Shown piece after piece: positions 5,098 through 26,832 of a DNA stretch of 28,157 nt (its first letter is position 1; every line of letters begins with the position of its first letter). The translations under genes and the position numbers were made by a program. The notes beneath the pieces are model-generated. The model saw nothing but the letters and a program-made list of their open reading frames with translations, made no database searches and was not told the DNA's origin. This stretch comes from Elusimicrobiota bacterium (lineage in GTDB: Bacteria > CG03 > SLGR01 > PWQF01), in NCBI GenBank assembly GCA_003557485.1, contig PWOI01000188.1:1-28157 (forward strand), written 5' to 3'.

Positions 5098-5667
5098 ATG
5101 AAATTAATAAAAACGCTTTTGGCGGCGTTTTTCCTTTTTGCTTTTTATTCTCCCGCAAAGACGCTGATAATAACGCCTTCCCAGCTGGCCTATGTAAATA
5201 TTGAACAGGTCTACGAGAATTTAATCATAGTTGAAAATGCCCGCGCTTCTCTTGAAAATTTAATAGAGGAGAAAAAAGCGGAAGTTGAAGAGCTTCAAAA
5301 TGATATTGACGAGCTCCGGGAGGCTATTAACCTCTACGATGAAAAAGAAATCCTTCCTGAAAATGAGGAAGAAGAACCCGGAGACTTACCTGATTCAAAG
5401 GAAGAACTTAATCAGGCACTGTCGGAAAAAGAAGCAAGGTTAAGTGACCTCAGGGAAGCTTCAGCCTTACAGATACAGCAGAAAAATGAAGCCCTCCGCA
5501 TCAGCATAATGAGCAAGATCTATGATGTTATTGAAGAACTGGCTGAACGGGAAGGATATACGGCAGTGCTTGACGGCAACATAGTTTTCTTTACAGGTGA
5601 AGCAGCGCCGGATATAACCGGAGAGGTTATACGAATACTCAATGAAAAAGCCAGGAAAAACAATTAA
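5098..5667 (+). CDS. skp: OmpH/Skp-family periplasmic chaperone
   Basis: A 189-residue protein with an N-terminal signal peptide (about 1-20) followed by a short strand (LAYVNIEQVYEN), a long charged coiled coil (about 45-130) and a C-terminal segment returning to beta structure (YTAVLDGNIVFF). This is the Skp/OmpH trimer architecture, in which helical tentacles hold unfolded outer membrane proteins on their way to BamA. The ATG directly abuts the bamA stop codon. The acidic insert around residues 80-105 (rich in Glu, with Asp-Leu-Pro-Asp) makes the coiled coil longer than in many Skp proteins. The C-terminus overlaps the lpxD start by 26 bases. Confidence 0.87.
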   Translation: MKLIKTLLAAFFLFAFYSPAKTLIITPSQLAYVNIEQVYENLIIVENARASLENLIEEKKAEVEELQNDIDELREAINLYDEKEILPENEEEEPGDLPDSKEELNQALSEKEARLSDLREASALQIQQKNEALRISIMSKIYDVIEELAEREGYTAVLDGNIVFFTGEAAPDITGEVIRILNEKARKNN

Positions 5668-6682
5668 GCTTAAAGATTTATGCAGTATTACTTCAGGAGA
5701 GCTGAAGGGGGACGGAGATACTGAAATCAAGGGTATAAATACTCTTGACAGGGCAGGAAAGGGAGATTTAAGTTTTTTTTCCGTTGCCAGGTATAAAGGC
5801 CTTCTTGGAAAAACAAAAGCCTCATGTGTTATTGTGCCCAAAGGCTTTAAAAAAAAAGTTCCCTGTGCAGTTCTTGAAGTAGATAATGTGCCGCTTGCTT
5901 TTACAGCCGCGGCAGACGCTATTTGCGGTAAAAGAAATCACTCCGTTAAGGGAATAAGCAGTAAAAGTTCGATATCCTCTTCCGCAAAACTTTCCTCGGG
6001 AGTAAAAGTAGGGGACTTTTCTGTAATAGAGTCCGGTGCTGTCATAGGTCCAGGTACTGTCATATATCCGCATGTTTATATAGGATGCGGCACATCAATA
6101 GGAAAAAACTGTATTATTTACCCCGGAGCAGTACTAGCTGATTCCGTAAAAGTAAAGGATGAAGTAATCATACATTCGGGGGCTGTTATCGGTTCCGACG
6201 GCTTCGGCTATGCCCGAATCTGAAAAGAAAATATAAAAGCCTCCCAGCACGGTGGAGTTACGATAGGCGACCGTGTTGAAATAGGAGCAAATACTACTAT
6301 AGACAGGGGCTCGGCCGCAGACACCGAGATAGGTGATGGGACAAAAATAGACAACCTCGTACAGATAGCCCATAACGTAAGAATAGGCAGAAACTGCATA
6401 ATAGTTTCCCAGGCCGGCATAGCAGGCTCTACTGTTGTGGAGGACGAAGCCGTTCTTGCAGGTCAGGCTGGAGTTGTGGGGCACATAAAAATAGGAAAAG
6501 GGGCCATGGTCGGAGCCCAGGCCGGTGTTACCAGGGATGTTAGGGAAGGATCGCTTGTTTCGGGCTACCCGGCCACCGAGCATAGGAAAGCAAGAAGGCT
6601 GAATGCATTGGTGAAAAAACTCCCCGAATTATACGACAGGGTAGAAAAACTGGCCAAGGAAATTGAGCAGGGAAAAAAATAA
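5642..6682 (+). CDS. lpxD: UDP-3-O-acylglucosamine N-acyltransferase LpxD, interrupted by an in-frame TGA
   Basis: The frame encodes LpxD, which N-acylates UDP-3-O-acyl-glucosamine in lipid A synthesis. The N-terminal uridine-binding domain (about 1-105) and a left-handed beta-helix of hexapeptide repeats are clear. Codon 194 (6221-6223) is TGA, but the same frame continues without a further stop to TAA at 6682. Counting TGA as one residue gives 346, the normal LpxD length. The stop falls in a variable loop between Gly-Phe-Gly-Tyr-Ala and Gln-His-Gly-Gly-Val, and the loop length is unchanged. The catalytic histidine in Gln-Ile-Ala-His-Asn (codon 244) lies after the stop, so the 193-residue product should be inactive. 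Other genes in the window end in TGA, so general recoding is unlikely. A recent nonsense change, a consensus error or readthrough are the options. The ATG at 5642 overlaps skp. Confidence 0.85.
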
Positions 6683-7958
6683 ATTTCAGCGTACGCTGGA
6701 AAAAGAAGTGCTGATAGAAGGTGCCGGACTGCATACGGGAGAAAAGGTTTCGGTTAATCTGCAACCGGCTCCCGAAAATACCGGAATAATTTTTATAAGA
6801 ACCGATATTGAAGGCCGGCCGGAAATTCCGGCTTCTGTTGAGTTTGTCTCTTCCTGCAGAAGGGGTACTACGCTAAGCCGTGAAGGTGCCGAAGTTATGA
6901 CCGTTGAGCATCTTATGGCTGCGCTATACGGAATGGAAATTGATAACTTATATGTTGAGGTGTCTGCAAAGGAACTGCCTGCATGTGACGGCAGCAGCAT
7001 GGTTTATGTTTCACGTATTATGGAGGCGGGTATCCGGCAGCAGAATGCAGAGAGAATTTACTTTACTCTTGACAGCCCGGTAGTTTATACGGAGAATGAC
7101 GCTGCGGTAATAGCGATCTCTTCCGACAGTCTTTCGGTTAATGCCGTTTTTGATTATAAAGAGGGACTACCAGGAGGGCAATATGCTTCAATTGCCATAA
7201 CCGAAGAAGGCTTCCTGAATGAACTCGCCGGCGCCCGTACCTTTTGTTTTGAAAAGGAGATCGAGCATATAAAAAGTCAGGGCCTGGGCCTTGGCGGCAA
7301 CAAAGAAAATACCCTTGTTATAAGCGAAAATTCTGTTAAAAACGCGTCCTTGAGGTTTGATAATGAATGTGTAAGACACAAGATTCTTGATTTTCTGGGT
7401 GATCTGAGCCTTCTGGGCGGTCAACTTAGAGCCAGAATTTTTGTTATAAAAACAGGACATAAGTCCAACATAAATTTCACAAAGAAATTAAGAAAGCATC
7501 TCATGGATAAAAATAATCTGCAGAAAAAAATAGATTCTGAAGGCATATTAAAGATACTTCCCCATAGGTATCCGTTTTTAATGGTAGATACGATTACTGT
7601 AGGAGGAGACGGGAAGACAGCCACCGGTTATAAGAATATTACCTCAAACGAACCTTTTTTCAAAGGGCATTTTCCTGATATGCCTGTTTTTCCCTCTTCG
7701 CTTATAATAGAATTTATGGCCCAGTCATCTGCTGTTCTGTTTCTTTCAGGCAAAAAAAATGATGATACTCTTGCCTACTTTATGATTATAGAAGATGCTG
7801 AGTTTTTCGGTAAAGTTGTTCCACCGGAAACTCTCAGGGCTGAAGTTGAACTTGTCCAGATGCGGGGCACCCGCGGCAAAGTTCGGGGTACAGCGTATAA
7901 AGAAAACGGAGAAATGGTGGCGCAGTCCCAGTTTATGTTTGCCATTGTGGAAAGGTAA
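6663..7958 (+). CDS. lpxC/fabZ: LpxC-FabZ fusion: UDP-3-O-acyl-GlcNAc deacetylase and 3-hydroxyacyl-ACP dehydratase
   Basis: A 431-residue fusion. Residues 8-280 are LpxC, the zinc deacetylase for the committed step of lipid A synthesis, with ligands His83 (Glu-His-Leu-Met), His239 and Asp243 (His-Lys-Ile-Leu-Asp) and the catalytic His266 (Gly-His), spaced as in E. coli LpxC. Residues 296-431 are FabZ, which dehydrates 3-hydroxyacyl-ACP, with His336 in Gly-His-Phe-Pro and Glu350, the usual 14 residues apart. The usual Met-Pro-Gly before the catalytic helix is Phe-Pro-Ser. Such fusions are known from Bacteroidetes and some other phyla. The only plausible start is TTG at 6663, because the conserved Gln-Arg-Thr start of LpxC follows 8 codons later; it overlaps lpxD by 20 bases. 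AAGGA at 6656-6660 is very close to it. Confidence 0.95.
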
Positions 7959-7966
7959 GAAATATT

Positions 7967-8740
7967 ATGAAAAATATACATAGAACTGCAATTGTGGAAG
8001 GAAATGTTAATATTTCCGGGGACGTTACAATAGGTCCTAATGCTGTTGTTCGGGGTGATATAACGATAGGTGAAGGCACAGTAATAGGCCCTAACGCGGT
8101 AATTGAAGGAAATGTAGAGATAGGTAAACACAACAATATCGGAATAGGCACCTGTATAGGAACCGAACCCCAGGCTTTCAGGTACGATGATGACACAAAG
8201 GTGGTTATAGGTGACAACAATATATTCAGAGAATACGTTACAGTTAACCGCTCTACTAAAAAAAACAGCGCTACCCGGATAGGAAACAGAACCATGCTGA
8301 TGGCTTATGTTCATGTAGCGCACGACTGCAGGATAGAAGATGAGGCTATACTGGCAAACTGTGTAACTCTTGGTGGGCACATAGAGGTGCAGGAAAAAGC
8401 CGTGATAGGGGGAGTAACCCCGGTGCATCAGTTTGTTAGGATAGGAAAAATGGCGATAGTAGGGGGAGGATCAAGAATTCCCAAAGATGTGGTTCCCTAC
8501 TGCCTTGTTGCCGGTAGCCCCGCGCATGTGTACGGGCTCAACAGGGTTGGGTTAAAAAGGCGCAACTATCCTGAACAAGTAAAGCGAAAACTTAAAGAAG
8601 CCTACAGTATCATATTCCGTTCGGGTCTCAATACTACTCATGCTGTTGAAGATATGCAGAAAAGAAAAGACCTCGATATACAGGAAGTCCGTGAAATTAT
8701 TGATTTCATAAATACATCCGATCGGGGCATTACAAAATAA
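7967..8740 (+). CDS. lpxA: Acyl-ACP--UDP-N-acetylglucosamine O-acyltransferase LpxA
   Basis: A 257-residue left-handed beta-helix acyltransferase catalysing the first step of lipid A synthesis, transfer of a 3-hydroxyacyl chain from ACP to UDP-GlcNAc. Hexapeptide repeats run from about residue 5 to 180, followed by a helical C-terminal domain (about 190-257). The catalytic histidine in His-Val-Ala-His-Asp is His119 (E. coli His125), and the Gly-Gly-Val-Thr-Pro-Val-His-Gln-Phe segment matches the acyl-chain site. The length is close to the 262 residues of E. coli LpxA. It follows lpxC-fabZ by 8 bases with a weak GGTAAG-type ribosome site. FabZ and LpxA compete for, or share, the hydroxyacyl-ACP pool, which explains their linkage. 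Confidence 0.96.
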   Translation: MKNIHRTAIVEGNVNISGDVTIGPNAVVRGDITIGEGTVIGPNAVIEGNVEIGKHNNIGIGTCIGTEPQAFRYDDDTKVVIGDNNIFREYVTVNRSTKKNSATRIGNRTMLMAYVHVAHDCRIEDEAILANCVTLGGHIEVQEKAVIGGVTPVHQFVRIGKMAIVGGGSRIPKDVVPYCLVAGSPAHVYGLNRVGLKRRNYPEQVKRKLKEAYSIIFRSGLNTTHAVEDMQKRKDLDIQEVREIIDFINTSDRGITK

Positions 8741-10624: not shown

Positions 10625-10629
10625 AGCGA

Positions 10630-10758
10630 GGCCGTCTTGGAAAACAACCCATATGTGGTTGTTTTCAGGCCGAGCTCCGAAGGCTAAAAGGCCGTCTTGG
10701 AAAACAATCCATACGCGATTGTTTTCAGGCCGAGCTCCGAAGGCTAAAAGGCCGTCTT
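10630..10758. repeat. Two 60-bp tandem repeats, each with a 10-bp hairpin, plus a partial third
   Basis: Units at 10630-10689 and 10690-10749 differ at only four positions. A third copy starts at 10750 and is lost after GGCCGTCTT. Each unit has a stem GAAAACAACC / GGTTGTTTTC (10640-10649 with 10657-10666) around a 7-base loop. Two of the four differences restore pairing: C10648-G10658 in unit one is T10708-A10718 in unit two. The other two lie in the loop. The palindrome GGCC recurs at the unit borders and after the hairpin. The last copy runs into seven T, so the array may also end the tRNA transcript. Confidence 0.85.
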
Positions 10759-10837: not shown

Positions 10838-12001
10838 ATGATGTTTGCTCACCTTCACTGCCACAGCAGGGGCTCTTTTTCTGATTCAATACTAAAAATA
10901 GAGGAAGCCGTAGAAAAAGCGGCATCAGACGGCCAGCCGGGGATAGCCCTTACAGATCATGGGACATTACACAGACCACTAAGTTTTATAAAAATCTGCA
11001 GGGAAAGAGGAATAGTTCCCGTGGTTGGATGCGAATGCTATTTTGTCGAGTCCGCAAAAAATACAATCAGAAAATCCGATAATAAAAGATATCACCTGGT
11101 CCTTCTGGCTAAGGACGGTCAAGGGATAAAAAATCTAATCACTATAATAAATAAGTCCTGGGAAGAAAACTGCTTTATGGAAAGAAGAGGTCTTGTTGAC
11201 TGGAAACTCCTTAAAAAATATTCTTCCGGCCTTATTTGCCTTACCGGCTGTTTCTGGAATATAATAGCACGTACGGGTGTTGATTGCGGTGAGGATGAAG
11301 CGGAAGAAAAATTCCGTGAATTTTACGATATATTCGGTCAGGATTTATATGCCGAACTGGGACGCCACGGGGTTAAAGAGGAAGAGAGATGCAACGAACT
11401 TCTCGTTAAACTGAGCAAAAAATACGGAGTCAAGCCGGTTGTAACAAATGACGTCCATTATCTGAACAAAAAAGATTCTTTACTGCACAGCTGTTTCATA
11501 AGAAGCAGATTCAACCGCCTTTCATCTTTTACTTACGAAGGAAGCGGGTTCCACCTTAAGACAATTTCCGAAATGAATGAGCTGGGCTTTAAAAAACAGT
11601 ATCTTGAAAACACCTTGGAAGTAGTTAATAAATGCAGCGTTGATGAAGACTGTTTTGAAAAAGGAGAAGACAGTCCGGAACTTGATCTTTCTAAACTTTT
11701 TGATTCCGGCTGCGCTGCATTTACTCCGGAAATATTAAAGGTAGGCCCCGAAAGAGCTGAATATATTTGCATGCGGCTCGATGCCGGAAAAGAGGAAGCC
11801 GAACGGCTTACGGGGCAGTGGAGAGAGGTTGCAGCAAACCTGTCACGGGTTGTTGTAAGTGTGAATCCTCCTCTTACGCAAATTACCCCTGTATTTAAAT
11901 GGAAAAGTTTACGTGTCTGCCAATTTTCCGAGGAAGAACTAAGAAGACAGGGGGTTTTTATTGTGGATACGCAGAGATGTCGGGAAAAAGCCCTGCTCTA
12001 A
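10838..12001 (+). CDS. Stand-alone DnaE-type PHP domain protein
   Basis: A 387-residue protein whose first 270 residues match the N-terminal PHP domain of the replicative polymerase DnaE, including the late segment Phe-His-Leu-Lys ... Leu-Glu-Asn-Thr-Leu-Glu. The polymerase palm, fingers and C-terminal domains are absent. The PHP metal ligands appear intact: His5, His7, Asp16, Asp40, His41, Glu66, His86, His177, Asp205 and His207. It could therefore be an active phosphoesterase or 3'-5' exonuclease. Residues 280-387 match nothing I recognise. It follows tRNA-Glu and a repeat array, and its end overlaps bioY by 25 bases. ATG codons at 10838 and 10841 are both possible starts. It may be a truncated and repurposed polymerase or a separate accessory nuclease. 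The exact function is unknown. Confidence 0.75.
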   Translation: MMFAHLHCHSRGSFSDSILKIEEAVEKAASDGQPGIALTDHGTLHRPLSFIKICRERGIVPVVGCECYFVESAKNTIRKSDNKRYHLVLLAKDGQGIKNLITIINKSWEENCFMERRGLVDWKLLKKYSSGLICLTGCFWNIIARTGVDCGEDEAEEKFREFYDIFGQDLYAELGRHGVKEEERCNELLVKLSKKYGVKPVVTNDVHYLNKKDSLLHSCFIRSRFNRLSSFTYEGSGFHLKTISEMNELGFKKQYLENTLEVVNKCSVDEDCFEKGEDSPELDLSKLFDSGCAAFTPEILKVGPERAEYICMRLDAGKEEAERLTGQWREVAANLSRVVVSVNPPLTQITPVFKWKSLRVCQFSEEELRRQGVFIVDTQRCREKALL

Positions 12002-12492: not shown

Positions 12493-12992
12493 TATATATA
12501 GCTTTAATATCCGCTGCCGCGTTAGTTTCTCTGGTTGTAGCTATGACGGGTATGCCCGGAGGATTCATATTGTTTTTGGTTATACTTGTCATATCTATTA
12601 TTGAAGGCTTTGATCCCTTGGGGTACGGCTGGATTTTAGTCTTTTTTTTCGTGGCGGCAGCAGCCGAGGTTTTTGAATATCTAAGCGGACTTATTGGAAC
12701 CAGGCGCTTGGGAGGGTCCCGTTCAGCTATGAAAGGGGCCCTTATAGGAGGCATGACGGGGGCTCTTCTGCTGTCGGCTGTTATTCCGGTCTGGGGTTTT
12801 CTTGTCGGGGTATTCCCGGGAACGTTTATAGGCGCATTTATAGGTGAATATAATAAGGGAAAAGATTTTTATAGATCTTCAAAAGCGGGAATGGGGGCTC
12901 TTGCCGGCAGGGTTGTCGCCTCTTCGCTTAAGGTTTTCGTAATACTTTTTATGGCTTCAATGGCCGTGGCCAGGTATTCGGGATTGTTCTGA
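12483..12992 (+). CDS. DUF456 family membrane protein
   Basis: A 169-residue hydrophobic protein of the DUF456 family, with about five membrane segments. The family landmarks are a Gly-x-Pro-Gly near residue 24, the Ala-Ala-Glu-Val-Phe-Glu-Tyr helix, an Arg-Arg-Leu-Gly-Gly-Ser-Arg-Ser loop near residue 75, and a glycine-rich helix with Gly-Thr-Phe-Ile-Gly-Ala-Phe-Ile-Gly-Glu. The biochemical role of the family is not known. The ATG lies in the end of bioY (10-base overlap). The gene ends in TGA four bases before the permease gene. TGA therefore acts as a true stop here, which bears on the TGA in lpxD. Confidence 0.85.
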   Translation: MAIVYIALISAAALVSLVVAMTGMPGGFILFLVILVISIIEGFDPLGYGWILVFFFVAAAAEVFEYLSGLIGTRRLGGSRSAMKGALIGGMTGALLLSAVIPVWGFLVGVFPGTFIGAFIGEYNKGKDFYRSSKAGMGALAGRVVASSLKVFVILFMASMAVARYSGLF

Positions 12993-26641: not shown

Positions 26642-26667
26642 CAATAAAGGTTTTTCTTTAGTATAAT
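26638..26667 (+). promoter_or_regulatory. Consensus promoter of the B12 uptake operon
   Basis: A perfect TTGACA (26638-26643), an 18-base spacer and a perfect TATAAT (26662-26667) form the strongest promoter in the window. Transcription should start near 26674, just before the riboswitch. The -35 box overlaps the stop codon of the antiporter gene, so the two operons abut. Confidence 0.82.
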
Positions 26668-26681
26668 ACTAGTAAATAACA

Positions 26682-26798
26682 GGCCGGCAGGGGAAGTTCC
26701 GTAAAGACGGACGCTGCCCCGCAACGGTAAATCAGCCCGAATACCTGCCGGTATAAGGCCTTCGAGGGAAGGGTGGGTGTATAATAAATAAGCCCGTA
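26682..26798 (+). ncRNA. Cobalamin riboswitch
   Basis: The core features of an adenosylcobalamin/cobalamin riboswitch are present. A stem CCGGCAGG (26684-26691) pairs with CCTGCCGG (26744-26751). GGGGAAG follows the 5' strand, the B12-box segment GCTGCCCCGCAACGG lies at about 26713-26727, and AGCCCGAATACCTGCC closes the core. A G-rich stretch (GGGAAGGGTGGGT, 26765-26777) lies between the core and the terminator and could pair with the terminator's ACCC strand as antiterminator. The downstream genes import B12, so binding should switch them off. Confidence 0.93.
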
Positions 26799-26832
26799 AA
26801 CCCGCGACAGGTCTGTATTCGCGGGTTTTTTT
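26799..26832 (+). terminator. Riboswitch-controlled intrinsic terminator abutting the btuF start codon
   Basis: AACCCGCGA (26799-26807) pairs perfectly with TCGCGGGTT (26819-26827), and seven T (26826-26832) follow. The T run ends exactly at the btuF ATG (26833). It is the expression platform of the cobalamin riboswitch: premature termination when B12 is bound. There is no separate ribosome binding site between hairpin and gene. Confidence 0.92.

Follow-up and report, generated by a model that had tools for sequence, protein, structure and literature searches.

A TGA stands within the lpxD gene of an Elusimicrobiota bacterium represented by a draft metagenome-assembled genome (MAG), and the question that it raises is whether the stop belongs to the organism, by recoding or by loss of the gene, or to the assembly. 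The window analysed here (28,157 bp) is an entire contig (C94) of this draft, which comprises 2.07 Mb in 212 contigs and is 86.6% complete. Its lpxD frame has 346 codons followed by a terminal TAA, with a single internal stop (Table 1). Translation confirmed the claim of an earlier sequence-only reading that this TGA forms codon 194 of an lpxD frame with no other interruption and lies upstream of QIAHN, which we take to be the catalytic-histidine motif of LpxD. The TIGR01853 profile was matched at positions 1–182 before the TGA and at positions 187–324 after it, collinearly over both lpxD domains, so that no part of LpxD is missing; the gene thus has the full-length match expected of the family, with one TGA interrupting its frame as assembled. 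Since the stop sits within a strongly conserved open frame of such length, a chance reading is impossible. In a comparison with 80 LpxD homologues, the TGA fell in a loop that varies in both sequence and length and where, therefore, no particular residue is required. We rejected a split gene with re-initiation, as no ATG start lies close downstream of the TGA, the earliest one seen in frame (position 6506) being past QIAHN.

Table 1 Features bearing on the lpxD stop and on isolated stops in other genes (positions refer to the window unless a locus is named).
Feature	Position	Strand	Basis or remark
lpxD (UDP-3-O-acylglucosamine N-acyltransferase)	5642..6682	+	Pfam LpxD and hexapeptide repeats; TIGR01853 and PRK00892 collinear, both halves
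In-frame TGA, lpxD codon 194, in loop	6221..6223	+	Translation; aligned sister codon GAA
CTCC-N9-GGAG segment proposed as SECIS-like	6241..6257	+	Judged ordinary coding sequence; SelB and tRNA-Sec not found
QIAHN codons, presumed conserved catalytic-histidine motif of LpxD, 3' of TGA	6362..6376	+	Translation
gyrB TAA (sister GAA)	L152:14937, contig C121	+	Single copy, otherwise full length, exactly one stop (family models)
rpoB TAA (sister GAA)	L150:1114, contig C108	-	Single copy, otherwise full length, exactly one stop (family models)
HU/IHF-family gene TAA (sister GAG)	L148:5720	-	Both halves match one family
Sugar epimerase TGA	L160:5237	+	Scan without sister; both halves match same family
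Sister metF TGA (GGA in this genome)	L229:6676	-	Comparison of the two genomes

The gene lies in an envelope cluster that runs from a BamA-like gene at 2836 and an OmpH-like gene at 5098 through lpxD to an LpxC-FabZ fusion (6663–7958) and LpxA at 7967, the BamA and LpxA identities being our own reading of the translations. The fusion joins LpxC to a FabZ-like (FabA-domain) part in one frame of 431 residues and is also found in the sister genome. Elsewhere in the window, a gene of the Deoxyhypusine-synthase family adjoins a pyruvoyl-dependent arginine decarboxylase and what we read as an agmatinase-like ureohydrolase (245–2711), which suggests a bacterial polyamine cluster. A PHP domain resembling, in our reading, the N-terminus of the DNA polymerase III alpha subunit DnaE stands by itself in a frame of 387 residues (10838–12001); a 60-bp tandem repeat (10629–10758; 2.2 copies, 94% matches) directly follows a tRNA-Glu(CTC); and a cobalamin riboswitch (RF00174, barely above the cut-off; 26642–26823) directly precedes a gene for a periplasmic binding protein, beside which we read an open frame resembling a BtuC-type permease.

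The same cluster is present in the only other genome of the genus, where its contig matches PWMP01000005.1 of the Elusimicrobia MAG CSSed10_282R1. Judging from its isolate name, this MAG appears to come from a study of soda lake sediments (PMC6146748), whose metagenomes were obtained from HiSeq 2000 reads assembled with MEGAHIT. The sister lpxD is collinear, full length and intact, with 81% DNA identity to that of the window, equal length and no gaps. Comparison with a relative had been proposed as a check, and it showed a sense codon, GAA, at position 194 of the sister gene. Around it the two loops have diverged (sister GCT GTA AGT GAA GGA GAA TAT versus window GCC CGA ATC TGA AAA GAA AAT), the amino acid differing at four of the six codons 191–196. 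Over the 152 codons 3' of the TGA, the first, second and third codon positions differed 10, 8 and 53 times, respectively. Judged by this pattern, purifying selection downstream of the stop is undiminished; the concentration of differences at third positions means that lpxD has been normally selected essentially since the two lineages split and that any real loss would have to be very recent.

We then compared ~149 kb of aligned coding DNA, after ~788 kb had been read from this genome and 382 kb from its sister, and counted stops over ~38% of the former. Besides lpxD, mid-gene stops in the aligned set affected three conserved genes, gyrB, rpoB and a member of the HU/IHF family, so that such interruptions are very rare (4 in ~45,000 aligned codons). 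According to our reading, the remaining stops in the comparison either precede the start of a gene or fall in an antisense frame. The scan carried out without the sister sequence added the sugar epimerase listed in Table 1 and, close to the end of a sodium/proton exchanger gene, a possible TAG. No cell can do without RNA polymerase and gyrase, yet rpoB and gyrB, both single copy, carry isolated stops in this same assembly; the draft must therefore be in error at these two stops at least. Given this demonstrated source of error, no biological cause has to be invoked for the lpxD stop.

Thus, we regard it as very likely that the lpxD TGA is a base-level error of the draft MAG and not a property of the organism's gene; the latter most likely specifies a normal LpxD of full length, its codon 194 being a sense codon. 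Consensus error was one of three options offered by the sequence-only reading, and the isolated stops in rpoB and gyrB clearly favour it. As for its origin, the pairs in which a stop differs from its precursor by one clean base (rpoB, gyrB and the sister metF) are all G to T, a change that makes up only ~27% of the single-base routes to a stop with this codon usage. Likewise, isolated amino acid changes from the sister to this genome include 65 G>T versus 34 T>G. Stops of this kind would fit oxidative damage or consensus error at low depth. However, a similar but weaker excess of G>T and C>A is also present at third positions, where it could reflect a mutational bias genuinely present in the lineage, so that the spectrum is suggestive of an oxidative artefact and by itself no proof of any artefact. 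In lpxD, moreover, the sister codon GAA is two changes away from TGA, and a single G>T would require an assumed, unseen precursor codon; given also the divergence of the nearby codons, the origin by a single substitution that had been put forward is plausible without being proven.

A related possibility is that a pair of one-base indels, mutually compensating and either real or errors, put codons 192–195 out of register and created the TGA, which would be a variant of an error or of a mutation, exclusive of neither. When the block is moved by one base, TCTGAA indeed pairs with AGTGAA in the sister sequence and three more positions match over 21 bases, but an equal or larger gain resulted for 23 of 259 blocks of the same divergence. 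The slip thus has no statistical advantage over simple divergence in a loop that varies anyway, and we consider these indels rather improbable. Ranking after base error, a recent nonsense mutation in the sampled strain or in part of its population is unlikely but comes second; LpxD would then be lost or supplied by an unassembled copy. The TGA does stand in the assembled consensus, single-gene pseudogenes occur, and a genome that is only 87% complete may be missing a second lpxD. Such an intact second gene had been suggested earlier, but our search of the assembled part (2.07 Mb, ~87% complete) found none, nor were there copies of the lpxD loop elsewhere in the loci read. Against a real mutation speak the intact selection 3' of the TGA, the open lpxC-fabZ and lpxA that directly follow, and the similar stops in rpoB and gyrB, which cannot be real and already demonstrate a source of error.

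Decoding of the TGA by selenocysteine insertion, a suppressor tRNA or general stop readthrough appears highly improbable. In its favour, the lpxD frame runs on cleanly past the TGA, a local stem lies 3' of it, and the assembly has stops in several essential genes, as would be expected if stops were read through. However, these stops comprise both TAA and TGA and are very rare, which fits neither a reassignment nor a single suppressor. We rejected a code change, given the presence of RF2 and the use of TGA as a regular stop: it terminates many genes in the window, including six neighbouring ones (those ending at 12992, 14792, 15793, 24128, 25469 and 26641, all with TGA as had been stated). Selenocysteine is not supported. 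Nothing exceeded the TIGR00475 cut-off for SelB in this genome (87% complete) or in seven relatives of the order, the best matches having the length of EF-Tu, and a tRNA-Sec with anticodon TCA was not found in any of these eight genomes, the RF01852 matches above the cut-off in this genome, G001 and G002 being tRNA-Leu(TAA). The CTCC..GGAG hairpin proposed earlier as a SECIS-like element exists as a segment, with a stem that begins 17 bases past the TGA (the loop named in that reading starts at ~23), but it is not the minimum-energy fold. The latter is a different, longer stem within the coding sequence (z = -3.0) that overlaps conserved codons. Even more improbable, to the point of being hardly credible, is that lpxD, rpoB, gyrB and the HU-family gene all contain real stops and that an unusually efficient readthrough lets this Elusimicrobiota lineage live with in-frame TAA and TGA in essential genes. 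Such a system operating in essential genes would be remarkable, but nothing supports these stops being real. The observation of the TGA is true, and in all probability the interruption of lpxD arose as an artefact of the draft rather than as new biology.

Compared with known LpxD proteins, the gene of the window shares the N-terminal LpxD domain, the hexapeptide repeats, QIAHN and the gene order bamA-ompH-lpxD-lpxC/fabZ-lpxA, whereas its frame differs by the one in-frame TGA in the variable loop. Before recoding or gene loss is proposed from one stop in a MAG, the assembly concerned should be checked for stops in further genes that the cell cannot do without. MAGs are known to suffer from local errors that stay uncorrected and yield wrong gene sequences (PMC7111523), and the present assembly resembles drafts with uncorrected base errors in having isolated single-codon stops across conserved single-copy genes, including rpoB and gyrB.
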